This document shows positions 2,234 to 17,216 of a DNA stretch of 21,820 bases, in pieces. Each line of letters opens with the position of its first letter. The stretch's first letter is position 1. The DNA is taken from the IMG/VR virus record IMGVR_UViG_3300005563_000861, positions 1-21,820 of that record; one strand, given 5' to 3'. The translations under genes and the position numbers were made by a program. The notes below the pieces were generated by a model. It was given only the letters and a program-made list of their open reading frames with translations, did not search any database and was not told the DNA's origin. This stretch comes from a virus.

Positions 2234-2264
2234 ATCCGTGTTCATCTGTGTCCATCCGTGGTTA
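2234..2264 (-). repeat. Interspersed ACCACGGATG-family spacer, copy 1
   Basis: On the minus strand the terminase stop codon TAA is the first element of a spacer containing CCACGGATGGACACAG, then ATGAACACGGAT. It fills the gap up to the next start (2222). It shares CCACGGATG and GAACACGGAT with copy 2 at 4598-4633 and more loosely with 12431-12467. The same style of sequence is, from memory, common between genes in some environmental bacterial genomes. Confidence 0.6.
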
Positions 2265-4304
2265 ATAAAAATTCTTCGGTTGCGCCACAAAATCGCTGCG
2301 GTGGCCGTCCACGGCCCCTTCGTCCTCCGTCACCCCGCCCAGGTACGGGCATTCGTCTAGGAAAAAGTACCGGTCACAATCCACCGGATCTTTGCACGCC
2401 CCGTCCATCGCCCGCCGCCCCTCCTTCGTCATCCCCGTCCACGTCATGAGCGCAAAAATGCTGTTCACGCACTCCTCGCTCACGTACAGCTTCGGCGCGT
2501 TGAAATAATCCACCGGCTTCGTCTCGTCATAATCCAGCGCATCCTGGATCATCGTCACCCCCTCCTCGATATCGTCGCCCGGCGTCGCCTCGAAAAACAG
2601 GTTGATGTCCGCAAAATTCTCGATCAACGTCACCGGCCGGTCGTTCTCCAGCTTCGGCGTGCTCCCGAACCGGCTGTCGATCTTCCGGTCCTGGATCACC
2701 TCGCGCGCCCCGTTGTGCTCGCTCATCCCGTCCAGGAACTCCTCGCGCACCTCCTTCGGCATCTGCATGAACTCCCGCTCGTATTTCTTCAAATCATGCC
2801 AGCCCTCCAGCCGCGCGATCTCCTCCTTGTACCGCCGCAACCCCCAGCCGAACGGCTTCTGCGCCGGCCCCCGCTTCCCGTCCGGATGCTTCCCGTCCGG
2901 CAACGCCCACGGCCCCGGCACGCCGATCCCAGGTATCGAATAATTCCCAGGCCACTCGCGATAGATGTACACCGCCCGCGGTGTCACCCGGTACCACTTC
3001 ATGAAAAAATTGCGACCCGCCGGGTCCACCCGCTGATAATTCGTCCCCTCCTTGGGGATCTGGTTCGCCGGGATCACGTGCACCGTCCGGTTGAACTTCT
3101 TGAACCGTGCGCTCATCGTCTTCGTCGCGATCCCGTAAAAGCGTTCCTTGATGAAATCCGCCGGCTTCCCCGCGATCTTGCGCCAGATGTTCTTTGGGTT
3201 CCCGTACGGATTGTCGCTCGAATGGAAATACACCACCGCCCGCTCCACCTCCTGGTTCTCTCCCGGTGCGCACTTCAACACCCGCGGCACCACCTCGAAC
3301 TCCCGCCCCGCCGGCACCGGCACCTGGCCGCTGTTGACCGGGTTCACATCGCTCGCCCCCTCCCACGCCTCCAGCCACTTCTGACACTGCTCCGGGCGGC
3401 TTTGCGGATACAGCGCCGCCCGCTTCTCTGTCACCGCCCGCCACAATTCCTCGTACTCCGCCTCCGACACTCCGAGCGCCCGGACCGGGTCCGGCTTGCC
3501 CCCGTCTTTCGGACATAAAAATGCCACGCTCTCCTTCACCACCTCCGCCCCGTCGCACAGCAACCGCACCGTCTCCGTATAACCCTCCACCGGCGTGAAC
3601 GTGATCACCACCCACCCGTTCTTCTCCGCCACGCGCAGCTCCAGCGTCTCCACCCAGTCGCTCGGCACCAGCTCGTCCGGCCACACGATCTCCAGGTTGC
3701 CGCCCTCAATTGACCGGATGTCCTGCTCATACGCCTTGAACGTGCAGCTCGCCCCCGCCTCCCCCGAAGTCGCGCTCTGCGGCGGCAGCACGAACTGCTC
3801 GTCGCTAAAACCCGTCTTCTGCTTGTACGCGATATATGCCGTCTTTCCCTTGATGTCCCCGCCCTTCAAGTGCGACGGCAGGTAATTGTAAAACAGCGGC
3901 TGCTGGTAATCCCGGCTCATCTGCAATGTGCTGTGCAGCGCCCACGCCTTCGCCGCCACGTAATGGAACAGCACCCGCATCGTCCGGTTCGCCGCGAACT
4001 GCGTCTTCCCCGCGCGATTCCCGCCCAGGATCAGCAACGTCCGCACCGCCTTGTCGAACCGCAGATGCTTCCGCATCTGCTCCGCCCACACCTTCTCCAC
4101 CCACGGCATGCCCAGCAACGCATCACACACCCGCCAGATCGGCGGCTGCCACAGATGCGAGAACGGGTCCGCCTTCTCCTCCGCGATGATCCGCTCCCGC
4201 CGCACCATCGCCTCGTTCCAGGCCTGCGACCCCATCGCCACCGCCTGCTCGGCCGTCGGCAGGCCCAGCACCGGATGCGCCGTCGGTTGAAAAGGTTTGG
4301 CCAT
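2262..4304 (-). CDS. Terminase large subunit (DNA packaging ATPase/nuclease)
   Basis: The product from the ATG at 4304 is 680 residues. It would pump phage DNA into the prohead and cut it. The ATPase half shows a Walker A box GGNRAGKT at about 94-101, a hydrophobic-Asp-Glu Walker B (LEIVWPDE, 204-211) and a coupling motif TFTPVEGYTE (235-244). The C-terminal half contains RVDPAGRNFFMKWY (about 425-438), placed where the first acidic residue of the RNase H-like nuclease is expected; the other acidic residues cannot be assigned with confidence. A segment rich in Pro/Gly at about 265-335 looks like an insertion. I chose the ATG at 4304 rather than 4322 because AAGGAG lies at 4313-4318, eight bases upstream. 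The preceding gene stops two bases before this start. No small terminase subunit is adjacent. The 680-residue length is on the long side for large terminases. Confidence 0.92.
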   Translation of the reverse strand: MAKPFQPTAHPVLGLPTAEQAVAMGSQAWNEAMVRRERIIAEEKADPFSHLWQPPIWRVCDALLGMPWVEKVWAEQMRKHLRFDKAVRTLLILGGNRAGKTQFAANRTMRVLFHYVAAKAWALHSTLQMSRDYQQPLFYNYLPSHLKGGDIKGKTAYIAYKQKTGFSDEQFVLPPQSATSGEAGASCTFKAYEQDIRSIEGGNLEIVWPDELVPSDWVETLELRVAEKNGWVVITFTPVEGYTETVRLLCDGAEVVKESVAFLCPKDGGKPDPVRALGVSEAEYEELWRAVTEKRAALYPQSRPEQCQKWLEAWEGASDVNPVNSGQVPVPAGREFEVVPRVLKCAPGENQEVERAVVYFHSSDNPYGNPKNIWRKIAGKPADFIKERFYGIATKTMSARFKKFNRTVHVIPANQIPKEGTNYQRVDPAGRNFFMKWYRVTPRAVYIYREWPGNYSIPGIGVPGPWALPDGKHPDGKRGPAQKPFGWGLRRYKEEIARLEGWHDLKKYEREFMQMPKEVREEFLDGMSEHNGAREVIQDRKIDSRFGSTPKLENDRPVTLIENFADINLFFEATPGDDIEEGVTMIQDALDYDETKPVDYFNAPKLYVSEECVNSIFALMTWTGMTKEGRRAMDGACKDPVDCDRYFFLDECPYLGGVTEDEGAVDGHRSDFVAQPKNFY

Positions 4305-4306
4305 GA

Positions 4307-4588
4307 TTATTGCTCCTTCCACCAGTCACCCGCGTCCGGTTTGACGTTGCCGCCCTTCAGTTGGACGATCTCCGCCGCCATCGAACCCGCCAGCGCCTCC
4401 ATGAATTGCAACTTGTTCTGCAACATCTTCACCTGGTGCTTGCGCGATTCCTCCCGCTCCTGATGCAGCTTGTGCACCTCCGCCCAGCCGCGGACCGTTT
4501 CCGTCCAGATGCGAGCCAGCGCGATAAACGCCAGCCAACCCACCACCGCCGCCACCGCCAGCAACACGATCAAAAGCGTTTCATTCAT
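4307..4588 (-). CDS. Small single-pass membrane protein with coiled coil
   Basis: The product is 93 residues. Residues 4-27 (LLIVLLAVAAVVGWLAFIAL and flanks) form one strong membrane segment directly after a three-residue start. They are followed by a charged helical stretch (VHKLHQEREESRKHQVKMLQ, about 38-57) with coiled-coil character and a second helix ending in an acidic/aromatic tail (DAGDWWKEQ). The topology fits a phage small membrane accessory such as a spanin- or holin-associated protein, but I see no lipobox and no lysis enzyme nearby, so the role is unassigned. It stops two bases before the terminase start and starts after spacer repeat copy 2 with an AAAACCTATGA context and no Shine-Dalgarno site. 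Confidence 0.65.
   Translation of the reverse strand: MNETLLIVLLAVAAVVGWLAFIALARIWTETVRGWAEVHKLHQEREESRKHQVKMLQNKLQFMEALAGSMAAEIVQLKGGNVKPDAGDWWKEQ
4313..4318 (-). promoter_or_regulatory. Ribosome binding site AAGGAG of the terminase gene
   Basis: AAGGAG on the minus strand, eight bases before the ATG at 4304, lies within the last codons of the upstream gene. It selects the start that yields MAKPF rather than MEGAII. Confidence 0.7.
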
Positions 4589-4597
4589 AGGTTTTCT

Positions 4598-4633
4598 TTG
4601 TTTCCGTGTTTAATCCGTGTTCATCCGTGGCTA
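4598..4633 (-). repeat. Interspersed ACCACGGATG-family spacer, copy 2
   Basis: On the minus strand this begins with the TAG stop codon of the HD hydrolase and continues CCACGGATGAACACGGAT, then TAAACACGGAAACA. It fills the gap to the start at 4588. It has the same layout as copy 1: stop codon, CCACGGATG, ACACGGAT, A-rich run, AAAACCTATGA. Confidence 0.6.
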
Positions 4634-5245
4634 ATTGCGTTTCTGCCCATTCACTCCCGTCAGAATGCGTGGCTCCGTCAGCGCTAGGTAATACGCATTA
4701 AAACTCTGTCGTGCCTCCTCCGGCCCCCACGGCAACACTGTCCCCGGCAACGGCGCGATATGCTCCGTGCTCCACTTGTGCGGCGAGGCCGGCAGCAGAT
4801 CCCGCCGCTCCGTCATCAACGCCCGCACATCCGCCTCCTTCACCCGCGGATCCAGCTCGAACGGCAGCCCGAACTTCAACGCGATCGCGTGCCAGATGCG
4901 CCACTCGATCTCCTTGAACTCCGGCAGATGCAACTTCAGCGGCTGCACCATGTCCCCGCAATACGCCTCCGTCGCGTCATGCAACAACCCCTGCAACTGC
5001 AACTCCGGCGGCAACTGCATCGCCACCAGGATCGAATGTTGCGCCACCGAATAAAACTGCCGGCAATGCCCCCCGAACCGGCAGATGTTCGCCAGCGCAT
5101 GCGCGATGTCCTCCAGGCACACCTCCGCCGGCAGCGGCGACATCGGATAAAACTGCCGCCCCGAAAACGTCAGTTGCCAGTTCCCCCGCCCGTCCGGGGC
5201 CGGGACAGCCTGTCCCGGCATCAAGTCGTTCGGTTCGTTATTCAT
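4631..5245 (-). CDS. HD-domain phosphohydrolase (phage nucleotidase type)
   Basis: The product from the ATG at 5245 is 204 residues. HD hydrolases of this phage-borne class resemble 5'-deoxynucleotidases and are thought to adjust nucleotide pools. I see FSGRQFYPMSPLPAEV (about 27-42), then DIAHALANICRFGGHC (46-61), YSVAQHS (65-71) and LLHDATEAY (87-95), the last carrying the metal-binding His-Asp pair (H89, D90). The start is set by an AGGAGG at 5252-5257 and by overlap with the stop of the upstream gene (ATGAATAA). The N-terminal 22 residues (DLMPGQAVPAPDGR) are translated from a perfect palindrome and look inserted relative to the conserved fold. It precedes the membrane protein and terminase genes. 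The substrate is unknown. Confidence 0.85.
   Translation of the reverse strand: MNNEPNDLMPGQAVPAPDGRGNWQLTFSGRQFYPMSPLPAEVCLEDIAHALANICRFGGHCRQFYSVAQHSILVAMQLPPELQLQGLLHDATEAYCGDMVQPLKLHLPEFKEIEWRIWHAIALKFGLPFELDPRVKEADVRALMTERRDLLPASPHKWSTEHIAPLPGTVLPWGPEEARQSFNAYYLALTEPRILTGVNGQKRN
5199..5219. repeat. Perfect palindrome inside the HD hydrolase gene
   Basis: Arms GCCGGGACAG (5199-5208) and CTGTCCCGGC (5210-5219) surround a single C, so ten base pairs match perfectly. It encodes part of the probably disordered N-terminus of the HD protein (PGQAVPA). It would fold as an RNA hairpin close to the start codon, or it may be an interspersed palindromic element. Confidence 0.7.
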
Positions 5246-5480
5246 GGCCCGCCTCCTGCGCATTCTTCTCCGCCGCGGCGGCGATCGCCCGCCGCTCCAG
5301 CTCGGCGATGCACCGCTCCGCCACCTGCAACTTTTCCTTTACCTTCACGAACATCGCCGCCGGCACCGGGTTCACCATGCCCACCTCCACCACCCGCTGC
5401 ATAAACATCGCCGCCTCATCCGTCGCCCGCACCACGCCCGCCGCCAGCTCGGCGTGGGACTGCTGCAAATAATCGTTCAT
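5238..5480 (-). CDS. Small helical phage protein of unknown function (80 aa)
   Basis: The product from the ATG at 5480 is 80 residues and almost entirely helical: MNDYLQQSHAELAAGVVRAT, a Met-rich middle (AAMFMQRVVEVGMVNPVPAA) and a charged C-terminal helix (KVKEKLQVAERCIAELERRA) that could coil. It is not a family I recognise. A longer in-frame start at 5540 would add 20 very basic residues, but AAGGAAA at 5484-5490 supports 5480. Its stop overlaps the start of the HD hydrolase, so the two are co-translated. Confidence 0.55.
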   Translation of the reverse strand: MNDYLQQSHAELAAGVVRATDEAAMFMQRVVEVGMVNPVPAAMFVKVKEKLQVAERCIAELERRAIAAAAEKNAQEAGHE

Positions 5481-5541
5481 AAGTTTCCTTCGCTTGATCC
5501 GTCGCCGGACCTGTCTTCGGTTGTAAAATGGATCACCCATT

Positions 5542-5775
5542 TCAAATTAAATTAAACGTCCGTTGCTTCACCAACACCGCCAGCACATCGTGGTAACTGG
5601 CCGATTGATCACTGAACCCCTTCGCCGCCGCGTGCACTCCATCCGTCCGGAGCGTGAACGTCCACTCCACCCCCTCGATCACCTGCACCCACGACGAATA
5701 CACATGCCGCTGCCGCACCTTCTTTACCTTCTCCGGCGCGCCCTGGGGGGGGGGTAATTGCGTTTCCGTTTTCAT
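5542..5775 (-). CDS. Small phage protein with a C10 tract near the start (77 aa)
   Basis: The product is 77 residues with no recognised family. After a polar start (MKTETQLPPPQGAPEKVKK) comes a likely small beta fold (SSWVQVIEGVEWTFTLRTDG) and a helix (SYHDVLAVLVKQR). Codons 8-11 contain a run of ten C on the coding strand (5745-5754), which is intact in this sequence. Gain or loss of one base there would stop translation early. A GAGG precedes the start. It lies between the ParB-like gene and the small helical gene, 61 bases upstream of the latter's start. Confidence 0.55.
   Translation of the reverse strand: MKTETQLPPPQGAPEKVKKVRQRHVYSSWVQVIEGVEWTFTLRTDGVHAAAKGFSDQSASYHDVLAVLVKQRTFNLI
5745..5754. 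repeat. Homopolymer G10/C10 tract
   Basis: Ten consecutive G on the plus strand, read as CCC CCC CCC C in the 77-residue gene, lie within the first 11 codons. Confidence 0.9.
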
Positions 5776-5793
5776 TCATACCATCCTCGTGGT

Positions 5794-7506
5794 TCACTTT
5801 TTCTTCGCCGCCTTCACCTTGGCCTTCGGCTTCTCCGCCGGCACCGGTGCCGCCTTGGCCGCCTTGTTGCTCTGCGGCCACAACGCCATGAGCTTGTCGC
5901 GGTCGGATTGTTCCTTCTTGCTGCCATAGCCCACCCACGTCGAAGAGGTCCGTAACAGCAGCTCCACGGCATAGCCGGGCAGGTTGTCGATCAATGGCGT
6001 GGTCTGGATGGTTTTGCTGATGATCTCGGCGTTCTTCTTCCAATCCTTGTCCACCTGGTGGCCCATGCCGTGCCCCTTCATCACCGCCACGATTTCGGAC
6101 TCGTCATAGTTCTCCAGGAAAACGGACAACGCCATCTGCGCCAGGTTGCGCCAGAACAGGGCCGGCATTTTCCGCAGCGCATCGCTGGACGAGCTGATGA
6201 TCTCCGTCAGCCGCTCCTCCATCTTCTTCTGTTCCGCCGCCTCCTTGGCCTCCTCCGCCTTCTGCTTGGCCTCGTCGCGCTTGCGCTGGGCCAGCTCCGC
6301 CGCGCTCGCTTTCCGCTTCGGCTCGGGTTTGATCAGTCCGTTGTCCTTCGCGAACTTCACCAGCTCCGCCTTCTTCCAGATGCGCTTCAACCGCATGCTG
6401 TCCCCGTTGTCGAAACGGCTCCCTTCCGTCAGCGCATAGATCGCCGGCGGCGCTTTCGTGCCCAGGATCTCTTTCCACTTTTTGTATCCGGGCGCCTCGT
6501 AGCAGGTATCGTCCTCGGACACGTAGTCGTTGCTATACCGGTTCTTTTCGTACTGCTTCGCGGTCCAGACGCCGGCGATAACCGGCGAACTGTTGGACGC
6601 CACCGCGCCGCACTTCTCCCGGAAGCAGCCCGGGTTCGTGCAGATGTTTGCATCCCCCTCCGCCGCCGGGATGTTCCCGGTGCGATACGGACAATCCGTG
6701 CACTTCGGTGCCGGCTTGCCGTCGAGTTTCACCGCCGCGAACAGCATCTCCTGGCTGAACGGCGCGTTCTTCAGCGTGATCCGGTAATTCGTTTGGATGA
6801 TCGTCTTTAATTCACGGAAACTCGGCGGCTCGTCATCACCCCGTCTCGGTTCGGTGGCTTCCTTCAGCACCTCCAGTTGGTTCTGCTGGTCCGGGATCTG
6901 GGCGATCAGCGCCGCCTTGCTGGCATCGAGCTTGCCCTCCCGCACCGCCGCCTGCACCGCCGGGGCCGTCTTCAACAACGCCAGCTTCCCATAAACCGCC
7001 GTCGGCTTCCGGTCGATCTTGCCCCCGATATATTCCACCGCCGCCTGCACCGTCTTCACCGTCCCCGCCTTTAGCAGGCTGTCCCGCCACGCCGCATACC
7101 CCTGCGCCTCCTCCAGCGCGCTCAGGTCCGCCCGTTGCAGATTCTCGATCTGCTGGATCTCCACCACCTGCGCGTCATCCAGCCCCTCCAGCACCAGGTT
7201 GATCTCGGCCAACTTCGCCTCCAGCGCCGCCGTCACCCGCCGTTCCCCCGCCACCAGCTCGTACTTCTTTCCCTTCGCCGCCGCGGCCGACCGGCCCGCC
7301 GGCAAGGGACGCACCAGCGGCCACTGCTTCACCCCGTGCTGCTTCACGCTGGCCACAAACTCCGGCCAGTCCGCCGCCTTCGTGAAATCCTGCCCGCGCG
7401 GATTCGTCAGGCTCCGCGCGATCTCGCCCGGCGCCGCCTTGATGTGTTTCGATTCAATCGTTTTGCTAACCGTCGTTGCTGTCGTTGTTGATGCGTTTTG
7501 GTTCAT
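5794..7506 (-). CDS. ParB-like nuclease/partition-domain protein with cysteine cluster
   Basis: The product is 570 residues. The N-terminal ParB/Sulfiredoxin-type domain shows a strand/NPR segment (SLTNPRGQD, 32-40), ELVAGERRVTAA with the GERR box at 87-90, and QQIENLQRADLSALEEAQGY (118-137), the usual continuation into the HTH-containing part. From 269 there is a cysteine cluster (C269, C272, C289, C294, C299) that looks able to bind a metal, as in several phage and plasmid ParB-like proteins. Residues about 400-445 are a Lys/Glu/Ala-rich coiled coil, and the C-terminus (KAKVKAAKKK) is strongly basic. No ParA lies beside it, so chromosome-style segregation is not supported; DNA binding, nicking or regulation are possible. 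The nearest upstream gene is the frameshifted winged-helix gene. There is no clear Shine-Dalgarno site before the ATG at 7506. Confidence 0.85.
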   Translation of the reverse strand: MNQNASTTTATTVSKTIESKHIKAAPGEIARSLTNPRGQDFTKAADWPEFVASVKQHGVKQWPLVRPLPAGRSAAAAKGKKYELVAGERRVTAALEAKLAEINLVLEGLDDAQVVEIQQIENLQRADLSALEEAQGYAAWRDSLLKAGTVKTVQAAVEYIGGKIDRKPTAVYGKLALLKTAPAVQAAVREGKLDASKAALIAQIPDQQNQLEVLKEATEPRRGDDEPPSFRELKTIIQTNYRITLKNAPFSQEMLFAAVKLDGKPAPKCTDCPYRTGNIPAAEGDANICTNPGCFREKCGAVASNSSPVIAGVWTAKQYEKNRYSNDYVSEDDTCYEAPGYKKWKEILGTKAPPAIYALTEGSRFDNGDSMRLKRIWKKAELVKFAKDNGLIKPEPKRKASAAELAQRKRDEAKQKAEEAKEAAEQKKMEERLTEIISSSSDALRKMPALFWRNLAQMALSVFLENYDESEIVAVMKGHGMGHQVDKDWKKNAEIISKTIQTTPLIDNLPGYAVELLLRTSSTWVGYGSKKEQSDRDKLMALWPQSNKAAKAAPVPAEKPKAKVKAAKKK

Positions 7507-7543
7507 ACGTTCGGAGTGTTTTGGTTTCAGTTGAAAATAAAAT

Positions 7544-8078
7544 TCACAGATTGATCACCTTGTAAGTCGCGTCCGCGCCATCCCCGTCCTTGGACAGCTT
7601 CCCCGTCTTCGTCCAGTACGCCAGGTTGCCGTACAACGTTGTCGCGCTCGCCGCCTCCAGCAGCTTCGCGTAATCCGCGTCCGCCTTGATCTTCTCGATC
7701 AGCTCGGACACCGTGAACGTCTTCAGCCCGTTCGCCAGCAGCTTCATCGCCGCGCCCAACGTCTCCGGCTTGCCGTCCGGCGCTAATAACACCCCACCCG
7801 CGGCAGCACCATTCGTTGCGCCAGCGGATTTCCCGCCCCCCCCCCCGGCTGGATTTCTTGTCGCTTGGTTTGTCGCTTCTCACGTCCAGGAATGCCGGAC
7901 GGTTGCGCGTTTTCTTCGGCTCCGGCACTTCCGTCTCGCCGCCGTACAGGCTCATGATGCCCTCGCGCATCGTCCGCAACTGTTGCAGGTCGCCCTCAAG
8001 CTGGAGTATGTCCCCGTCGATCTCCGCCACCGTCTTGCGGATGTGCGGTGCCATCTGATTGTCCGTGTTCGTTTTCAT
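7544..8078 (-). CDS. Coiled-coil/winged-helix protein, frameshifted at a G11 tract
   Basis: Two frames join into one plausible protein. From the ATG at 8078 the first frame gives MKTNTDNQMAPHIRK, a helical coiled region (DGDILQLEGDLQQLRTMREG) and a Lys/Ser-rich linker ending SDKKSS. At 7836-7846 there is a run of eleven G on the coding strand. Past it the sensible reading is one frame over: GGKSAGATNGAAAGGVLLAP, then a winged-helix-like domain (TFTVSELIEKIKAD, ATTLYGNLAYW, GKLSK, DATYKVINL), stopping at 7544. Deleting one G (ten instead of eleven) restores a continuous protein of about 177 residues. The break could be a sequencing or assembly error, phase variation, a mutation or ribosomal slippage. 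A GTG at 7792 could start the C-terminal part alone, without a clear ribosome site. Confidence 0.6.
7836..7846. repeat. Homopolymer C11/G11 tract at a frameshift
   Basis: Eleven C on the plus strand, read as G11 by the minus-strand gene. This is exactly where the reading frame of the winged-helix protein changes. Confidence 0.9.
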
Positions 8079-8131
8079 TTTTGGATGTGTTGAATGATTT
8101 GTTGCGTTGTTTGAAATGATTGGGTCCAGCG

Positions 8132-8827
<696 letters not shown>

Positions 8828-8854
8828 TTTGATTTGGATGTGTGTTGTTTTGGT

Positions 8855-10306
8855 TTATTGAGTCAAAGTAAAATCAATCGCCCCCTGGTTCGGCTCCACG
8901 TGGAATTGCAACGTCTCGTGGTGGAAATACAGCCAGCGCGCCCCGTTCTGGTTCGTCCCCGGATACCGCTGCTTGCTGTGCGTGAACTTGCTGTCCCACA
9001 CCTTCCGCAACTTCTCCCGCGCCTCCCGGATCACCTCCGGCGCCTTGCTCCGCGCCGCCTCCTCCTGCTTCAGCTCGATCAGCTCCTGCGCCTTCTTCTC
9101 GTTCCGCTCCATCTTCACCACGTTGTCCGGTGCGTCCGTCAACTGCTTCGAGCCCCGCACCTTCTGCTTCATCGAACCGTCCCCCTTGTTCTCATGCACC
9201 ACCACCACCGTGTGCGCCTTCCACTTCATTGAAAAACCGCACACCCCCTGGATGAAATAACCCTGCGCCGCGTAATCATCATCCGCGATCCCCACCTTCA
9301 TCATGTTGTCGATGATGAAAAACTTCCCCCCGTGATGCTCCGCCGCGTAATGGAACGTGTTCAGCAGATCGTTCTTGTCCGTGATCCCCCAGAAATTATA
9401 AAGCACCACCCGCTTGTTCAGCCACGCCAGCGCCCGCACGATCCGGTGGATGTTCTCCTCCGTCCGCTCCAGCTTCCCCAGGCCCATCAACTGCCGCGCC
9501 ATGATCCACAACGTCACCTCCGGCCGCATCTCCATGCTCGCCACCACCACCCGCTCCCCCTCCGCCAGTTGCGCCGCCACGCAGATCGCCATCAGGCTCA
9601 GCATCGAAGTCTTCCCCGAGCCGTTGTCCCCCGTGAACAACGTCGTCTCCCCCGGCCGCAACCGCAGCGTGTACTCGAACGGCAGACGGTACCCGTACTC
9701 ATCCTCCTTCCGGTCAAAAAACTGGTTGTAATACGCCTCCGCAAACTCGTTCGGAAACGACAAATTCTTCGGCTGCACCGTCCCCCGGTGCGTCAGCCGC
9801 ACCCACTCCTCATGCCGCAACTGGATGTTCGCGATCTTGCTCTCCGTCAGCTCCCCGGACTCCATCACCGCCGCCGTCTGCTCGGAATTTTTCTGGATCA
9901 GCCGTCGCGCCACAAATTTTTCCCAGACCAGCCGCAGGTAATCCTCGATCATCGAGGGCGAAACCGCCGCATCCTGGCACTGGCTCAAGTACGCGTACCC
10001 CCCCACCTGCTCCAGCAACCCGCGTGCCTTCAGCTCCGCCTGCACCGTGATCACGTCCAGCCGGCCGTCCCGCGCCTTCAGGAAGGTGATCGCGTTCCAG
10101 ATCGCCAGATGCGCCAGATCGTAAAACACCTCGTCACTCCCGAACTGCGCCTGGCACCGCTCGATCGCCGCCAGCGCCTTCGCCATCTCCCCGTCCACCA
10201 TCGACACCGACCCGCCCAGGCAACACCCCAGCACCGCCCGCTCCGCCAGCCCGTCATGCGGCGGCAGCTTGTCCAGCGTCGGATTTTGTTGGGAAACGGA
10301 TTCCAT
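8855..10306 (-). CDS. dnaB: DnaB-type replicative helicase
   Basis: The product is 483 residues, close to the usual length for DnaB. The N-terminal domain has LAERAVLGCCLGG (20-32) and helices through about 140. The RecA-like motor has a Walker A box GDNGSGKT (226-233), VVVASMEMR (253-261), a Walker B FFIIDN (329-334), a sensor-type His in VVVVHENKG (367-375) and RGSKQLTDAPDNVVKMERN (384-402), which resembles the DnaB arginine-finger region. It unwinds the phage DNA ahead of the fork and would recruit host primase and polymerase. It starts one base after the stop of the exonuclease (TGATATG) with no ribosome site, so it is probably translated by reinitiation. Its likely loader partner is the replisome organiser at 10883-11839. 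Confidence 0.9.
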   Translation of the reverse strand: MESVSQQNPTLDKLPPHDGLAERAVLGCCLGGSVSMVDGEMAKALAAIERCQAQFGSDEVFYDLAHLAIWNAITFLKARDGRLDVITVQAELKARGLLEQVGGYAYLSQCQDAAVSPSMIEDYLRLVWEKFVARRLIQKNSEQTAAVMESGELTESKIANIQLRHEEWVRLTHRGTVQPKNLSFPNEFAEAYYNQFFDRKEDEYGYRLPFEYTLRLRPGETTLFTGDNGSGKTSMLSLMAICVAAQLAEGERVVVASMEMRPEVTLWIMARQLMGLGKLERTEENIHRIVRALAWLNKRVVLYNFWGITDKNDLLNTFHYAAEHHGGKFFIIDNMMKVGIADDDYAAQGYFIQGVCGFSMKWKAHTVVVVHENKGDGSMKQKVRGSKQLTDAPDNVVKMERNEKKAQELIELKQEEAARSKAPEVIREAREKLRKVWDSKFTHSKQRYPGTNQNGARWLYFHHETLQFHVEPNQGAIDFTLTQ

Positions 10307-10307
10307 A

Positions 10308-10835
10308 TCAGAGCTTGATTTGCAGGGCGTAAAGGATGTCCATCAAATGCACCGCCTGGCTCCTGGCATCGTCCAGCGCGTTGTGGTGCGTGCCGGTGCG
10401 TGCCATTTTCACCTGCGGCGCGAGCGCCTTCATCGTCCGGTAACACCGGTCATTCCAAAGCTTCCACGGTGCCTCCTCATGGATCGCCCGGTAGGCCGCC
10501 ACCAAAATCGGGTTGTCAAACGACGCGCCATTGCCCCACACCTCCGCCTCGTCCGGCAACAGCCAGTTCCGGAACTGCGTCAACGCCGTGATCAGTTCGG
10601 TGCCGCCCTGGCAGATGCCGCCCCGCGCCGGCTCGTTCCGCTCCAGCCACCACTTCACCGTGCCCGCGTCGATCGTCAGCCCCGCGCGCTGCGCGTCCAC
10701 CATGTCGATGACCTGGTAAAATTCCTCCCCCAGCTCCATGTTCGCCGGGTTGAACTTCACGGCACCGATCGCCACGATCACCGCGCCCGGGCCGGTGCCC
10801 AAAGTTTCCAGATCCAGCATGACTTGTATTTTCAT
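10308..10835 (-). CDS. DEDDh 3'-5' exonuclease (Rv2179c-like)
   Basis: The product from the ATG at 10835 is 175 residues. The DEDDh residues are all visible: D8 and E10 in MLDLETLGTGPGAVI, D107 in WGNGASFDNPIL, H151 and D155 in GTHHNALDDAR. KWWLERNEPAR (61-71) and CYRTMKALAP (131-140) also match the phage/Rv2179c-like 3'-5' exonuclease group. It would remove nucleotides from 3' ends of DNA or RNA during replication or recombination. An in-frame extension back to 11123 overlaps another gene and is not used. The leader is A-rich with ACACCTATGAAA and no Shine-Dalgarno site. The stop is directly followed by the helicase start. Confidence 0.9.
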   Translation of the reverse strand: MKIQVMLDLETLGTGPGAVIVAIGAVKFNPANMELGEEFYQVIDMVDAQRAGLTIDAGTVKWWLERNEPARGGICQGGTELITALTQFRNWLLPDEAEVWGNGASFDNPILVAAYRAIHEEAPWKLWNDRCYRTMKALAPQVKMARTGTHHNALDDARSQAVHLMDILYALQIKL

Positions 10836-10882
10836 AGGTGTGTTTTCTTCGTTTGTTTTTTGGTTTGAACGTCCGGAGTGGT

Positions 10883-11839
10883 TTAAGCCGTGTGCAACTC
10901 CTCCTCCAGCGCCGCGATTTCTTCCGGCACGCCGCTTTGACGCGCCAGCTCCAGCGCTTGCAAAATCTCCCCGCGCGGCCGCCCCGTTTTTGTCACCCGC
11001 TCGCCGTGGCTGCCATTGGGTCCAGGCACCGCCTGCTCGCGCTGGCCGTAGTAATCGTGAAAGTTCGCGCCGAACAACGTCCCCGGCTTCAGCCAATGCC
11101 GCGCCTTCGGGTCGTTTTTCCACAAAGCCACCTGCCGCCGCAGCATCCGTTCGATCCCCGCCACATCCCGCCCCGCCTCCAGCAGCCGGCCCGTGATCTG
11201 GTCCAGCTCATGCAACGGCGGGTTGAACTTGGAACCCGTCAGCGCGTTCAGCAGCGACACCAGCCTCGCCGCCGTCTCTGCATCGCCCTCCCCCACACCC
11301 CCTGTGGGAGAAGGAACGATAGAAGGAACGAATGATAGTGCGCTGGCTTCGCGGTGGCTTCCTGATGGGGTACCCGTAGGGGGAACCGTTGGGTTATCGT
11401 TGGCTTCCGTCGAAATGCGTCCAGACCCACCTTTAGACCCACCCCTGCGACTGGCCGGAACCGCCGCTATATCCGTACGGTTAACCGTTGGGTTCTCGGT
11501 GGGTTTTTGCCCGCGTCTCCCAAAGGGATTACGCTGCCAGTTCCCCACCATCTGGCTGTTCATCTCGTTCCAATCGTGGATCCGCACCCCGTCTTTTTCA
11601 ACCACCACGAACCCCGGCTTGCCGCACTCCGTCAGACCCTTGAACAGCGCCCCCTCCTGGCCGTCCCAGCCGCAGATCATCTCCACGTACGAGGCATCCG
11701 CCCCCGCCCAGAACTCACCCCGCTGGTTGCTCTGGCAATGCCCCCAGATCGCCACCAGGAACTCCATCGCCCGCTCACCGGCGATGCGCTTCAGACGAAG
11801 GAACTTCGGGTGCCGCGGCAATTCAGGTTCAACACGCAT
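10883..11839 (-). CDS. Phage replisome organiser (DnaD/phg_2220_C-like)
   Basis: The product from the ATG at 11839 is 318 residues. The N-terminal part (MRVEPELPRHPKFLRLKRIA, AMEFLVAIWGHCQSNQRGEF) looks like the winged-helix of phage replication initiators of the O/DnaD type. A Gly/Ser/Thr/Pro-rich linker (about 110-190) follows. The region around residues 198-268 (LVSLLNALTGSKFNPP, GIERMLRRQVALWKNDPK, HWLKPGTLFGANFHDYY) matches what I know of the conserved phage C-terminal domain phg_2220_C. Such proteins bind the origin and load the helicase, here the DnaB two genes downstream. A TTG six codons upstream is also possible; the ATG is preferred but lacks a ribosome site. The origin may lie within the gene, as in lambdoid initiators, but I could not locate iterons. 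Confidence 0.8.
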   Translation of the reverse strand: MRVEPELPRHPKFLRLKRIAGERAMEFLVAIWGHCQSNQRGEFWAGADASYVEMICGWDGQEGALFKGLTECGKPGFVVVEKDGVRIHDWNEMNSQMVGNWQRNPFGRRGQKPTENPTVNRTDIAAVPASRRGGSKGGSGRISTEANDNPTVPPTGTPSGSHREASALSFVPSIVPSPTGGVGEGDAETAARLVSLLNALTGSKFNPPLHELDQITGRLLEAGRDVAGIERMLRRQVALWKNDPKARHWLKPGTLFGANFHDYYGQREQAVPGPNGSHGERVTKTGRPRGEILQALELARQSGVPEEIAALEEELHTA

Positions 11840-11872
11840 GTCAAAAGTAAGGTTCAATCGGATGTCAAAAGT
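11838..11872. repeat. Two direct copies of ATGTCAAAAGT, 24 bp apart
   Basis: ATGTCAAAAGT occurs at 11838-11848 and 11862-11872. On the minus strand this is ACTTTTGACAT, each copy holding TTGACA. The nearer copy includes the ATG of the replisome organiser. The repeats could be a binding site or a local duplication. A good -10 at the right distance is not present. Confidence 0.6.
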
Positions 11873-13234: not shown

Positions 13235-13265
13235 AGTAAAAATAAATAAACGGGCGCCCGCTTTA
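13235..13265 (-). terminator. Likely rho-independent terminator after the excisionase-like gene
   Basis: Immediately after the TAA of the HTH gene, the minus strand reads AAGCGGGCGCCCGTTT, which can fold with a GCGC loop and five or six pairs, followed by ATTTATTTTTA. The stem is short, so efficiency is uncertain. Confidence 0.4.
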
Positions 13266-13463
13266 TACGGTCTGCCCCTCCAGGAACGCGTTCACCGCGC
13301 TCGCCGGGATCCGCGTGATCCGGTGCCCCAGCTTCCGCACCGGCGCGATCTTCCCCTGGCCGATCCACCGCCACACCGTGGACACATCCACCTTCAGCTT
13401 CGCCGCCACCTCATCCGGCGTCAGCTGCTCCTCCACGACCTTGTTGGCAACGTGTTTCGACAT
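13263..13463 (-). CDS. Excisionase-like helix-turn-helix protein
   Basis: The product from the ATG at 13463 is 66 residues, the size of an excisionase. Residues about 11-60 (EEQLTPDEVAAKLKVDVSTV, WRWIGQGKIAPVRKLGHRIT, RIPASAVNAFLEG) match the HTH_17/MerR-type fold used by phage excisionases and small regulators: helix, VSTVWRWI recognition helix, a basic wing and a final helix. It would bind DNA near the attachment site or an early promoter and could direct the integrase towards excision, although it lies 2.4 kb from the integrase. A longer frame to 13580 overlaps the neighbour and is not used. The start lacks a Shine-Dalgarno site. Confidence 0.75.
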   Translation of the reverse strand: MSKHVANKVVEEQLTPDEVAAKLKVDVSTVWRWIGQGKIAPVRKLGHRITRIPASAVNAFLEGQTV

Positions 13464-13480
13464 GGGAAAAATTGAAAAAC

Positions 13481-13705
13481 CTACGACCGCCAGCCACCAT
13501 TCACCGCCAGCCAGAAATGCAACCGCCGGCCGCGGTGATTCACCTCCTGGAGGCCAAAAAAAGAACTGAACCAGCCGCAACGGTCACCGCGACCGCCAGC
13601 AGCACAGACGAATTTGCTAAAACAACTGCGCCGGAAATAAGGCGGGTTATCGCTACGCCGCGACTGGTTCAAAAATTGAAAAAGCTGATCGGTGGTCGCC
13701 TTCAT
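13481..13705 (-). CDS. Small early protein of unknown function (74 aa)
   Basis: The frame from the ATG at 13705 encodes 74 residues: MKATTDQLFQFLNQSRRSD, an Arg/Phe/Cys-rich middle (FRRSCFSKFVCAAGGRGD) and an aromatic end (RRLHFWLAVNGGWRS). I do not recognise it. Support comes from position: it fits neatly between the neighbours (16 bases after one stop, 17 before the next start) and its start context GAGGATATG is the same as at 13225. A plus-strand frame overlaps it (13472-13870) but has no such context. Confidence 0.45.
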   Translation of the reverse strand: MKATTDQLFQFLNQSRRSDNPPYFRRSCFSKFVCAAGGRGDRCGWFSSFFGLQEVNHRGRRLHFWLAVNGGWRS

Positions 13706-14222: not shown

Positions 14223-14656
14223 GAGTAACGCAGCTTCGTCATTTCCTTCCACACCGCCTTCACCAGGCTCCACTCACAGGCAACCTCCAGCGCGCGCTTC
14301 AAAGACTGGTTACCCAGCTTGGAATAATATGCCCGCTTCCCACGCGATTCATTGGGAGCCCACGTCTTGAAATCCTGCCAGTTACGCAAGTGATGGCGCA
14401 TCTTGCCCCGCACACCATTGAAAGCCTCACGGATGCAATCCAGATCCCGCGGCGAAGGATCCACCATTTGAGAGATATAGACCGGCAACCGGCCTGGCTG
14501 AAAAGTCTCATACTCCAACTGCACCCACGTCTGACCGGCATTGTAGCCGCTGTCTTCAGCGTACCGCTTCACCTTCAGCAGGTAGTCCACATCCGCCACC
14601 GTCACCGAATATTCAGTGATCAGATCGCCCGTCATGGGTGTGGCCCTGGAGATCAT
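14219..14656 (-). CDS. Early protein of unknown function (145 aa)
   Basis: The product is 145 residues. A beta-rich N-terminal half (ITEYSVTVADVDYLLKVKRY, TWVQLEYETFQPGRLPVYIS) leads into a basic helical half (DLDCIREAFNGVRGKMRHHL, WQDFKTWAPN, SLKRALEVACEWSLVKAVWK). The basic helices could bind nucleic acid, but no family is recognised. The ATG at 14656 overlaps the stop of the preceding gene and has GGAGGT at 14663-14668, seven bases upstream, so I prefer it to the ATG at 14635. It is coupled at its 3' end to the 166-residue gene. Confidence 0.65.
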   Translation of the reverse strand: MISRATPMTGDLITEYSVTVADVDYLLKVKRYAEDSGYNAGQTWVQLEYETFQPGRLPVYISQMVDPSPRDLDCIREAFNGVRGKMRHHLRNWQDFKTWAPNESRGKRAYYSKLGNQSLKRALEVACEWSLVKAVWKEMTKLRYS

Positions 14657-14934
14657 CCCACCACCTCCAATTCACTCTCCGTCGAAATATTATGCCCCCG
14701 CTCCTCGCGCTGGAATTGGACCCGCTTACCACCCGCCGTCTGCACCACCACCGTCCTGCGCGCCACCGGCACGATCTTCGCGCGACACTCATTCACCAGC
14801 ACCACACGATGGACCTCATGTGCAAAACGCACCAACATCCCGGGGCGCAACCGCGCCAGCGAAGCCGGAGAACACCCCATAGCCAAACCGCCTTCGGCTT
14901 GGCAACGTGGCATTGTGGCACTCATCGGCTTCAT
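14653..14934 (-). CDS. Small early protein, possible SH3-like fold (93 aa)
   Basis: The product is 93 residues. After a Met/Cys-rich start (MKPMSATMPRCQAEGG) the region LARLRPGMLVRFAHEVHRVV, LVNECRAKIVPVARRTVVVQ looks like a small beta barrel of the SH3/KOW type often found in phage accessory proteins, followed by a charged tail. The second methionine (14925) is an alternative start; neither has a Shine-Dalgarno site. Its stop overlaps the next gene's start (TGATG arrangement). Function unknown. Confidence 0.5.
   Translation of the reverse strand: MKPMSATMPRCQAEGGLAMGCSPASLARLRPGMLVRFAHEVHRVVLVNECRAKIVPVARRTVVVQTAGGKRVQFQREERGHNISTESELEVVG
14663..14668 (-). promoter_or_regulatory. Ribosome binding site GGAGGT of the 145-aa gene
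   Basis: GGAGGT lies six to seven bases before the ATG at 14656, inside the end of the preceding gene. It fixes the longer of two possible starts. Confidence 0.7.
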
Positions 14935-14945
14935 ATTTTAAAAAC

Positions 14946-14985
14946 GACAAAAAAAGGTGAAAACCAGCGCCCTCAAGCGCTCACG
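14946..14985 (-). terminator. Possible terminator after the minus-strand RHH gene
   Basis: AGCGC and GCGCT can pair across the RHH stop codon region, followed by GGTTTTCACC and a run of seven T on the minus strand. The stem is only five pairs, so this is a weak call. If it works, it would limit readthrough from the RHH promoter into the early genes. Confidence 0.3.
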
Positions 14986-15176
14986 GCCTCCGGTTCAGGC
15001 TTCAAAGCCGGCACCACCGGCGGAATCTCCGGCGTCCCAATCCCCAAATCCCGCCGGATGAGCCGCCGCAAATACTGGCTCCGGTTCAAGTCCAGTTCAT
15101 CCGCCCGGGAATCAATTTTCCCAAGCAAATCCGGCTCGATTTGCACAGTTACATTCTTAAACTCATCGGCTTTCAT
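14973..15176 (-). CDS. Ribbon-helix-helix (CopG/Arc-type) regulator A
   Basis: The product is 67 residues. The order strand (FKNVTVQIEPDLLGKI), helix (DSRADELDLNRSQYLRRLIR) and a Pro-rich tail is typical of ribbon-helix-helix repressors, which bind DNA as dimers of dimers through the paired strands. LNRSQYL (about 30-36) is identical in the divergent regulator at 15267. The start codon abuts the operator-like repeats at 15181-15206, so autoregulation is likely. The protein may control the lysis-lysogeny decision or the early operon, which continues downstream of it on the same strand. Confidence 0.8.
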   Translation of the reverse strand: MKADEFKNVTVQIEPDLLGKIDSRADELDLNRSQYLRRLIRRDLGIGTPEIPPVVPALKPEPEAVSA

Positions 15177-15180
15177 GTGG

Positions 15181-15206
15181 ACAGCTTACTACAGCTTAAT
15201 AAGCAG
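15181..15206. promoter_or_regulatory. Operator-like array between the divergent RHH genes
   Basis: ACAGCTTA occurs at 15181-15188 and again at 15191-15198, exactly ten bases (one helical turn) apart. The second copy runs into GCTTAATAAGC, a near-perfect palindrome. Tandem short sites on one face of the helix are what ribbon-helix-helix proteins bind. The array lies directly upstream of the start of regulator A. Confidence 0.55.
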
Positions 15207-15229
15207 TCAAGACAAAATAACATTCCTTG

Positions 15230-15258
15230 TTGACAGCCTGAAATAATGAATATTTAAT
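15230..15258 (+). promoter_or_regulatory. Putative sigma70-type promoter for regulator B
   Basis: TTGACA at 15230-15235 is followed after 17 bases by TTTAAT at 15253-15258 (or TATTTA at 15-base spacing). Transcription would begin only a few bases before the ATG at 15267, so the message could be nearly leaderless; no Shine-Dalgarno site is present. Confidence 0.45.
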
Positions 15259-15266
15259 AACCGCCG

Positions 15267-15482
15267 ATGACAACACACAAACGAAGCGATGCCCAAACGG
15301 CCATCAGTGTTTCCATCCCCAAAGAACTCCTCGTCCTGGTGGATAAACGCGCCGCGGCCCTCGGCCTGAACCGGTCCCAATACCTTTCCCAGCTAGCCCG
15401 TGCCGATTTGCATGAAGGCGGCACCCTGACACTGCGCGAAGGACCCACTCCCTATCGCACTAGGCCCAAAGATTCCGATTGA
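15267..15482 (+). CDS. Ribbon-helix-helix (CopG/Arc-type) regulator B
   Basis: The product is 71 residues: strand (TAISVSIPKELLVLVDKRAA), helix (ALGLNRSQYLSQLARADLHE) and a short Arg/Pro tail. It shares LNRSQYL with the divergently transcribed regulator A, so the two are probably paralogues reading related sites. It is one of only two plus-strand genes in the window, and its promoter faces away from the early operon, the position of a lysogeny-side repressor. A membrane protein gene follows 32 bases downstream in the same direction. Confidence 0.8.
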   Translation: MTTHKRSDAQTAISVSIPKELLVLVDKRAAALGLNRSQYLSQLARADLHEGGTLTLREGPTPYRTRPKDSD

Positions 15483-15514
15483 CTTGGTGCGTGCCTTGGG
15501 TGCTGACTTATAGG

Positions 15515-15889
15515 ATGGCCGAGCCCAAAGTTAAATTCTCTGAATTTGGTGGGGAAAATGACCCTCCTTACAGCCAGCAACAGATAGATCAAATCTGCGC
15601 TAGGCTCGACACTCTGAAAGAACCCGTCTTCATTCGCCCGCCGGATACAAAGCTGCAAGTTTTTAAGTGGATAACCCTCCTCTTGTGTGGTGCCGCCCTT
15701 GGCCTCTTTGCCCTCTCACATCGCTACGCCACCACATCGCAGATTGTGACGATTCAGAATCACCAATGGATGGTGGCCATCAAAGTGGACAACCTGACTG
15801 GCACCACCTCCTTCTGTCGCATCGGCGATCCGTTGGAAGATACCTATTCCCCCTTACCTTCACCTTGGGTTAACATGTCCGTCAAATAG
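15515..15889 (+). CDS. Small membrane-anchored protein, possible lysogeny-expressed gene
   Basis: The product from the ATG at 15515 is 124 residues. An acidic 49-residue N-terminal part is followed by one membrane segment at about 50-68 (FKWITLLLCGAALGLFALSH) and a short domain (IVTIQNHQWMVAIKVDNLTG, TTSFCRIGDPLEDTYSPLPS) outside or inside the membrane. It follows regulator B and would be made from the same promoter, so it may be expressed in lysogens, for example as an exclusion or conversion factor; that is inference. A TTG at 15479 could extend the frame. Its 3' end overlaps the integrase stop by eight bases, tail to tail. Confidence 0.6.
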   Translation: MAEPKVKFSEFGGENDPPYSQQQIDQICARLDTLKEPVFIRPPDTKLQVFKWITLLLCGAALGLFALSHRYATTSQIVTIQNHQWMVAIKVDNLTGTTSFCRIGDPLEDTYSPLPSPWVNMSVK

Positions 15890-17216
15890 TCCGCGCGTCC
15901 GGAGTCTTTGCTGGCTTCGCCAGCGGTGTAAGGGCGCACGCGCCCTCGGACCAGGCATCCAAGGCCACATCATCCCGATGCCCCTGCGCGTCTTTGACGG
16001 TAATCCCTATGTCCAGACCAAGTCTGCGCCACGGAAACCACCGCTCAAAATAATGCCGCTCCGCCACCCCTTGCGGCACATGGCGCAAAAACGCCTTCGC
16101 CGCCTCATGCCCATACCGCTCCTCCATCACCTGCGCCGCCCAGCGCCGCAACTCATACCCCGCCTTCGCATAATCCTTGGCGGGTAAAAACTGACGCATA
16201 AACTTAGCATGCACCTCATTCACCAGGTCATGCCGCTCCGTCACATCCTTCGCCACAATCAGAAAATCATCCGGCCGTTTACCGCTCACAAATGGCAGAA
16301 ACAAAGCCGCCACCTCCGCCGTCAGCGGAATGTGTCCCTCCGACCGCTTCGGCTCAAAATACGGCGTGCGAAGAACCGAAAAGAAAACCTGCCCCCACGG
16401 CGCGCGTTTGAACCACTCCACCCGCGCCTGGCACATCTCATCATTGCGCAGACCAAGGAACTTCTGCAAATGATGCACCAGCCACAACTGCGGCTGCGTT
16501 TCCTTCAACTTGTCAATGGCGGTTTGTATCTCCAGCAACGTCCCCGCCTGGATCGGCAAATGGATCCGCGCCTCCGTCTCGATCACCGCCGCCGCCCTAA
16601 ACCGTGTCAGGTCCGGCAAATTCAGATCCCGATAAATCAACAAGGCCTGCGCTGAAAACATGCTCTTCACCTGGCGCAAAATCGAATCCGCCCCACGCCG
16701 GCGACTCTCCCGCGCCTCCCGATCCTCACCCGCCGCCTTCACATAATTCGCCTTAAAATTCGCCACCAAAATCTCATCCGCCAAAATCCCGGCCGAAAGC
16801 CCGTCCACGTTCAAAGTCTCATTCTTCTTCCCCTCGGCCCCGTGCGCCCAACGCAAAAAAGTGCGCAACGCCGAAACATTCTTGATGATCGAGCTATGCT
16901 CCAGCCCCTCATTCACCGTTTTGATTTTGCCCTTGTAGGCAGCGATAATCTCGCCGAACGTCGCCGGCATCCGCGTCCGTGGTCCGCGCAACTGCTGGAT
17001 TTGTTTCTCCGTCATATCCCGCAACAACGCATTTCGTTTGGCGATGGCCAGCGAGCGGTCCTTTGTCTCCAGCGAAAGGGAAACCGTTTTCTTGTGAATG
17101 CGCTTGCGAAAGTACCACCAGCCATAGCGGCACATGAGATTGGAAGGATTAGCCGCCCGCGGTGCGCTGTATTTGATGGGAGCAGGTGTAACCATAAGTG
17201 GTGTCACGCGACGCAC
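15882..17216 (-). CDS. int: Tyrosine recombinase / phage integrase
   Basis: The product is 444 residues from a GTG at 17216, or 437 from the ATG at 17195; neither has a clear ribosome site. An N-terminal arm-binding-type segment (CRYGWWYFRKRIHKKTVSLS, about 29-48) leads into a core-binding domain (GEIIAAYKGKIKTVNEGLEH, ALRTFLRWAHG) and the catalytic domain. Catalytic candidates are R257 in FLGLRNDEM, K290 in EPKRSEGHIPL, R357 in GYELRRWAA, H379 in FLRHVPQG and the nucleophile Y389 in ERHYFERW. The usual first His of the H-x-x-R box is Tyr (Y354). It would integrate and excise the phage at the tRNA-Arg fragment 108-130 bases upstream of its start. The terminal codons overlap the convergent membrane gene. 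Confidence 0.85.
   Translation of the reverse strand: MRRVTPLMVTPAPIKYSAPRAANPSNLMCRYGWWYFRKRIHKKTVSLSLETKDRSLAIAKRNALLRDMTEKQIQQLRGPRTRMPATFGEIIAAYKGKIKTVNEGLEHSSIIKNVSALRTFLRWAHGAEGKKNETLNVDGLSAGILADEILVANFKANYVKAAGEDREARESRRRGADSILRQVKSMFSAQALLIYRDLNLPDLTRFRAAAVIETEARIHLPIQAGTLLEIQTAIDKLKETQPQLWLVHHLQKFLGLRNDEMCQARVEWFKRAPWGQVFFSVLRTPYFEPKRSEGHIPLTAEVAALFLPFVSGKRPDDFLIVAKDVTERHDLVNEVHAKFMRQFLPAKDYAKAGYELRRWAAQVMEERYGHEAAKAFLRHVPQGVAERHYFERWFPWRRLGLDIGITVKDAQGHRDDVALDAWSEGACALTPLAKPAKTPDARTI
15910..15946. terminator. Two adjacent hairpins at the convergent gene ends
   Basis: GCTGGC/GCCAGC around TTC (15910-15924) and AGGGCGC/GCGCCCT around AC (15931-15946) lie inside the last codons of the integrase, 20 bases past the stop of the plus-strand membrane gene. 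No T run follows, so they are plausible but unproven stop points for the convergent transcripts. Confidence 0.35.

Follow-up and report, generated by a model that had tools for sequence, protein, structure and literature searches.

A divergent pair of RHH genes as a proposed early-gene switch in uncultivated temperate phages

Two small ribbon-helix-helix (RHH) genes, RHH1 and RHH2, face away from each other across a 90-bp gap in a stretch of 21,820 bases from a virus record (the window, meaning the whole stretch of DNA that was analysed). We propose, with a probability of about 0.6, that they form a temperate-phage switch in which RHH2 would repress the leftward early operon and RHH1, the first gene of that operon, would act as a Cro/Arc-like partner. 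The proposal draws on the arrangement of the genes, the homology of their products, the promoter-like and palindromic sequences between them and the recurrence of these features in related phages, from which we infer what binds, which way the repression runs and a connection with lysogeny. RHH2 is accordingly put forward as the maintenance (CI/Mnt-like) repressor, and its gene probably shares a transcript with that of a small membrane protein.

The gene pair, its neighbours and its relatives

The genes considered here are the following:

2262-11857, minus strand: genes that follow downstream of RHH1 on its strand (replication initiator-like, exonuclease, DnaB-like helicase, ParB-like, 5'-nucleotidase-like and terminase)
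2262-4322, minus strand: terminase, one of the RHH1-strand genes
5794-7506, minus strand: ParB-like gene, about 8 kb from the RHH pair
13263-13580, minus strand: excisionase-like HTH_17 protein (HTH_17, 49.6 bits; phrog_66 excisionase, 7.7e-9), in the RHH1 operon
14973-15176, minus strand: RHH1, 67 aa (Pfam RHH_1, 25.0 bits against a cut-off of 20.5), first gene of the leftward early operon
15267-15482, plus strand: RHH2, 71 aa (Pfam RHH_1, 20.2 bits against the same cut-off of 20.5)
15479-15889, plus strand: small protein with one hydrophobic segment, its start overlapping the RHH2 stop (Kyte-Doolittle maximum 2.04, the highest of 19 window proteins tested)
15882-17216, minus strand: tyrosine-recombinase-like integrase, divergent in sequence and convergent with the RHH2 unit (DUF6538, E 0.008, below the cut-off)

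Judged from their sequences, RHH1 and RHH2 are true relatives, with 21 of 46 residues identical (46% over 46 aa; E 7e-11 in a single BLASTP comparison). Both contain LNRSQYL, as the original prediction of two divergent RHH paralogues had it; this motif is in part the consensus of the RHH family, and a longer stretch, ELDLNRSQY[LF]RRL, is common to the four RHH1 orthologues. RHH1 passes the curated cut-off of RHH_1 (PF01402) and RHH2 is borderline, 0.3 bit short of it; the RHH2 orthologues of loci L012 and L021 both pass (21.1 bits each), and that of L023 gives no match to this model, matching only a NikA-like RHH model below its cut-off. The AF2 model of RHH2 (mean pLDDT 72) has two helices, at residues 19-31 and 36-50, and its best Foldseek matches are MazE6, MazE-mt10 and Arc chains (probability 0.95-0.99, E >0.1), with CopG and ParG also among the matches, all with weak E-values. 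Comparison of the RHH proteins with GenBank phages and PLSDB plasmids returned nothing useful, the sole weak match being to Bacillus phage G (E 0.08).

The divergent pair recurs in related phages. L012, found by scanning with the terminase alignment, lies in a 44.5-kb record (G006), where the genes run in the order of the window: integrase, hydrophobic protein, RHH2-like, a 99-bp gap and RHH1-like, followed by homologues of the excisionase-like protein, p233, p164, rep, DnaB, ParB and the terminase. A scan with four RHH sequences gave three loci, L012 again together with L021 (record G010) and L023, and all three carry the pair in divergent orientation. Hence, synteny of the pair holds in four of four phage records that possess it, the window included; the relatives are all uncultivated phage records. 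The L021 record has a distant terminase of the same family and none was found for L023, which suggests that the RHH pair travels with different packaging genes. In the tree, the RHH1 and RHH2 proteins form two separate orthologous groups (UFBoot 83, SH-like 0.94), with the L023 RHH2 as the outlier; the duplication is therefore probably older than these phages.

Among nine related records searched with RHH_1, matches occurred only in G006 (the pair) and in G004, a more distant terminase relative in which a single RHH gene heads an operon without a partner; several of the other seven are fragments that stop short of the region. The G004 gene (L020, 2597-2938) is immediately preceded by an integrase-like gene of the same orientation and has no divergent partner. 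Single-sequence scans of viral contigs with RHH1, RHH2, p233 and the integrase gave no relative, and a DnaB scan gave one distant locus. The terminase scan of viral contigs gave four loci, and the terminase alignment 13 IMG/VR contigs including those four. Two pattern scans for the terminase in genome contigs found none, and no host was found; together these results suggest a phage lineage that seems to be uncultured.

Integrase and excisionase-like genes lie near the RHH pair. The window integrase has no match to Pfam PF00589, and contains LRNDEM and LRHVPQGVAERHY, which we take to be catalytic-motif-like sequences of a tyrosine recombinase. The integrase-like protein of L023 likewise lacks a Pfam match, and close kinship between the window and L012 integrases was rejected (E 0.06). 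In the window, RHH2 and the hydrophobic protein are oriented opposite to the rest of the assigned genes. The repressor unit of a prophage usually runs against the other phage genes, and the orientation seen here is the one expected of such a unit. Hydrophobic proteins hold the same position after RHH2 in all three relatives, and family searches with the window protein gave no convincing match. The sequence TTGACTTGG spans the RHH2 stop codon in the window (15479-15487) and in L012 (1583-1591); the overlapping frame starts LTW in both, the remainder being not detectably alike, and this overlap may be a conserved translational-coupling start. Elsewhere in the window, positions 8132-8360 form an Ala/Asp/Tyr low-complexity repeat, the C-terminal part of a 231-aa protein with a 62% identical counterpart in L007.

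Promoters and a recurrent palindrome in the 90-bp gap

The gap between the two genes (15177-15266) contains these elements:

15181-15188, plus strand: ACAGCTTA, proposed third half-site, 10 bp from the next half-site and over the putative RHH1 -10
15183-15188, minus strand: putative RHH1 -10, TAAGCT, weak, with a 16-bp spacer
15191-15207, no strand assigned: 17-bp near-palindrome ACAGCTTAATAAGCAGT with one mismatch, proposed RHH operator of two half-sites
15205-15210, minus strand: putative RHH1 -35, TTGACT, which shares bases with the operator at its outer end
15230-15235, plus strand: RHH2 -35, TTGACA
15253-15258, plus strand: RHH2 -10, TTTAAT, with a 17-bp spacer, ending 8 bp upstream of the ATG

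The palindrome on one side and TTGACA on the other are thus present as originally described. It had also been claimed that a repeat recurs at exactly one helical turn; ACAGCTTA does occur twice (15181-15188 and 15191-15198), at a spacing of 10 bp, which is near but not exactly 10.5 bp. The 17-bp near-palindrome is an extension of a perfect 11-bp palindrome, GCTTA-A-TAAGC, at 15194-15204. In 5000 dinucleotide shuffles of the 90 bp, 8-mers recurring after 10 or 11 bp arose in 0.14%, repeated 8-mers at any spacing in 5.0% and palindromes of the 8-1-8 form with one mismatch or none in 3.8%. The RHH2 promoter is sigma-70-like with 11 of 12 matches, a score equalled in 0.1% of 1000 mononucleotide shuffles; a generic promoter scan overlooked it because it accepts only A as the second base of the second hexamer. 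The RHH1 promoter of the window matches the E. coli consensus at 8 of 12 positions and is equalled by 71% of shuffles, which is not above chance. Taken singly, only the phased repeat and the RHH2 promoter clearly exceed chance, and the palindrome becomes convincing because it recurs in relatives.

An operator-like palindrome, ACnGnnTA-n-TAnnCnGT, stands at the RHH1 promoter in two of the three relatives (L012 and L021), and hence in three of four records with the window. With the gaps oriented so that RHH1 lies to the left, the best common palindrome reads ACAGCTTA-A-TAAGCAGT in the window, ACGGAATA-A-TATTCTGT in L021 and ACTGTATA-T-TATACCTT in L012. These share four invariant symmetric pairs, a result reached by one of 600 shuffled triples in a test that presupposes no pattern. 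Pairwise, window with L021 (0.7%) and L012 with L021 (0.8%) are both significant, and window with L012 (23%) is not. If a single mismatch is allowed, the pattern ACNGNNTANTANNCNGT, derived from the window and L021, is present in the gaps of the window, G006 (1 mismatch) and G010 (0); L012, the independent case, matches 9 of 10 consensus positions, equalled by 0.26% of 5000 shuffles. It should be noted that the L012 palindrome covers the TATAAT -10 on the RHH1 side, so that this match could partly be promoter sequence. L023 has ACGGTTGA-GAACCAGT at the corresponding place, a match that is no more than suggestive, with 7 of 10 positions; ACnG-N8/9-CnGT occurs in 4.9% of shuffles. The L021 and L023 gaps were 1 and 14 bases longer in the palindrome, shuffle and promoter scans than in the triple test, owing to the choice of start codon, which leaves the result for L012, the window and L021 unchanged.

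Genome-wide, the palindrome pattern was no commoner than its reversed control (forward strand, 1 against 2 in G006 and 2 against 3 in G010), so the count was rejected as evidence and only the location is significant. In the window, L012 and L021 the distance of the palindrome centre from the gene starts is about 16-28 bp for RHH1 and 68-83 bp for RHH2, and in the window and L021 the palindrome takes up the spacer between the putative -35 and -10 of RHH1; this position suggests the promoter of the early operon as the target. The third half-site was not seen by eye in the gaps of the relatives. A role of TTGACA in an RHH2-side operator was considered and rejected, as it is the RHH2 promoter and no recognisable site lies over it. 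RHH2-ward promoters score 11 (window), 11 (L012), 10 (L021) and 10 (L023) of 12, and are thus present in all four gaps. The expectation of a minimal switch made only of RHH proteins is well supported in its two-sidedness by the synteny (four of four) and the palindrome (three of four), with the correction that the operator is found on the RHH1 side only.

As to which protein would bind, the residues AxSxS of the RHH2 strand, with strand positions assigned by alignment to known RHH structures, are identical in the window, L012 and L021 and differ in L023, and those of RHH1 vary. Across these four phages, RHH2 residues are constant where the palindrome is present, which points to RHH2 as its main binder.

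The proposed switch would then operate as follows. The gap would be the control region of the early genes, with a strong sigma-70-like promoter driving RHH2 and probably the small membrane protein to the right, and a weaker promoter driving RHH1 and then the excisionase/replication operon to the left. RHH2 dimers on the 17-bp palindrome and the extra half-site would cover the leftward -35 and -10 and keep the early operon off, much as Mnt acts on arc-ant in P22. A low level of RHH2 would let the leftward promoter fire and RHH1 would be made first, competing for the same half-sites and/or damping both promoters as Arc does; the role of RHH1 as autoregulator and antagonist is proposed by analogy with Arc. 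RHH dimers are described as binding short major-groove sites and associating along DNA, with promoter occlusion as the mode of action (PMC5569661).

The best -10 elements in the gaps of the window, L012, L021 and L023 lie, on either side, with only 6-23 bp between their ends and the start codons, and no Shine-Dalgarno sequence was obvious by eye in these four gaps. Several messages may therefore be near-leaderless, possibly including that of RHH2; the lambda cI message is likewise near-leaderless.

Known systems and alternative explanations

The nearest precedent is the immI region of P22, where mnt (14519-14770, minus strand) and arc (14861-15022, plus strand) are separated by exactly 90 bp containing two promoters and two operators. 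The original prediction likened the region to a Cro/CI-type arrangement and did not recognise this layout of two small divergent RHH genes with an identical gap, the operators of the window being putative. In P22, Mnt functions in lysogeny and Arc in the lytic cycle (PMC11016777, PMC7549136). Mnt represses arc and ant, and Arc in turn inhibits mnt and has a moderating effect on ant (PMC11016777); the homology between the two is given as about 40% (PMC7549136). The systems differ in several respects: the Pfam Arc model PF03869 recognises both P22 proteins (about 1e-30) but neither RHH1 nor RHH2, and the P22 promoters overlap whereas the putative promoters of the window are separate.

The P22 module is a secondary one that controls an antirepressor, and the most serious alternative is that the window pair is of this kind, its control confined to its own genes and a side function (an antirepressor or exclusion gene) under an unseen primary repressor that decides lysogeny. 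The shared architecture and gap length fit this explanation, the hydrophobic protein after RHH2 would suit an exclusion gene, and the window is a 21.8-kb fragment, so that another repressor could lie outside it. However, antirepressor domains (P22_AR_N, PF10547; Bro-N, PF02498) were found in none of the four records, RHH1 heads excisionase-like and replication genes, and the CI-type Peptidase_S24 and above-cut-off HTH_3 were likewise found in none of the four (G011 has one weak HTH_3 match). We regard this explanation as unlikely, though it is the best of the alternatives.

Considerably less probable is that RHH2 is an antitoxin for the downstream membrane protein, with the gap as its autoregulatory operator only. 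The nearest solved sequences are indeed MazE/VapB-type antitoxins, NCBIfam VapB models match far under their cut-offs, and CopG-family RHH_1 regulators (CopG, MazE6, VapB) belong to the same sequence and fold family as the window pair. Unlike in those systems, no plasmid copy-control or toxin partner was recognised in the window; family searches of the neighbours found no toxin family, the downstream proteins differ between phages (window against L012, E 0.43), and the common palindrome stands at the promoter of RHH1 and not of RHH2. Less probable still in our estimation would be a phage-plasmid in which the RHH proteins serve partition or copy control as ParG/CopG-like regulators working with the ParB-like protein. 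The ParB-like gene and the ParG and CopG structural matches speak for it, as does an RHH protein reported with a ParM-type system in Bacillus phage B83 (PMC6669507); yet there is a single palindrome and no iteron array, the ParB-like gene is distant, an integrase is present and no ParA-like protein was found among the genes scanned. Finally, it is very improbable that repeats and palindrome are chance products of an AT-rich gap between functionally unrelated genes, for although such palindromes (3.8%) and repeated 8-mers (5%) do arise in shuffles, the pair and the palindrome recur in relatives.

The proposed temperate-phage switch led by RHH2 also resembles lambda CI/Cro in its divergent putative repressor genes with operator-like sequence between them and in the probable joint transcription of repressor and accessory gene. 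The TP901-1 CI/MOR pair is grouped with the lambda type. Lambda employs helix-turn-helix/S24 proteins, whereas the window pair is RHH, and no three-site operator was seen in the window; for co-transcription of the cI-rexAB kind, epsilon34 may be compared (PMC2629481). In archaeal viruses, the small RHH protein F55 of SSV1 is a CI-like keeper of lysogeny acting at early promoters with tandem repeats, and AvtR of AFV6 occupies the stretch of about 100 nt that separates its own promoter from the promoter of a second, predicted RHH gene (PMC5569661); F55 is presented in the passages concerned without an opposed paralogous partner. Another Arc-type protein, YosL of SPbeta, has been linked to lysis-lysogeny control (PMC10516654).

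Significance of a paired RHH switch

A paired RHH switch is not new, P22 Mnt/Arc being the precedent. What is new here is the different RHH sequence family, the position at the head of an excision/replication operon, and that neither an antirepressor nor a CI-type repressor was found; searches of an open-licence library brought up no bacterial phage whose primary switch is described as a pair of RHH proteins. More tentatively, and at less than even odds, the paralogue pair may be the only, primary lysis-lysogeny switch in uncultivated temperate phages with different terminases. The second helices of RHH1 and RHH2 are very alike, so mixed dimers may form and let early RHH1 titrate RHH2; if so, this would be a protein-exchange switch and not simple operator competition.

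The findings suggest that the Mnt/Arc logic known from secondary immunity in P22 may, in uncultured phages, also work as a switch in its own right at their main early operon. Pipelines that seek CI-type HTH/S24 repressors would overlook such switches. A bistable circuit made of two proteins of about 70 aa each and 90 bp of DNA would be very small, and its operator consensus is concrete enough to be tested.
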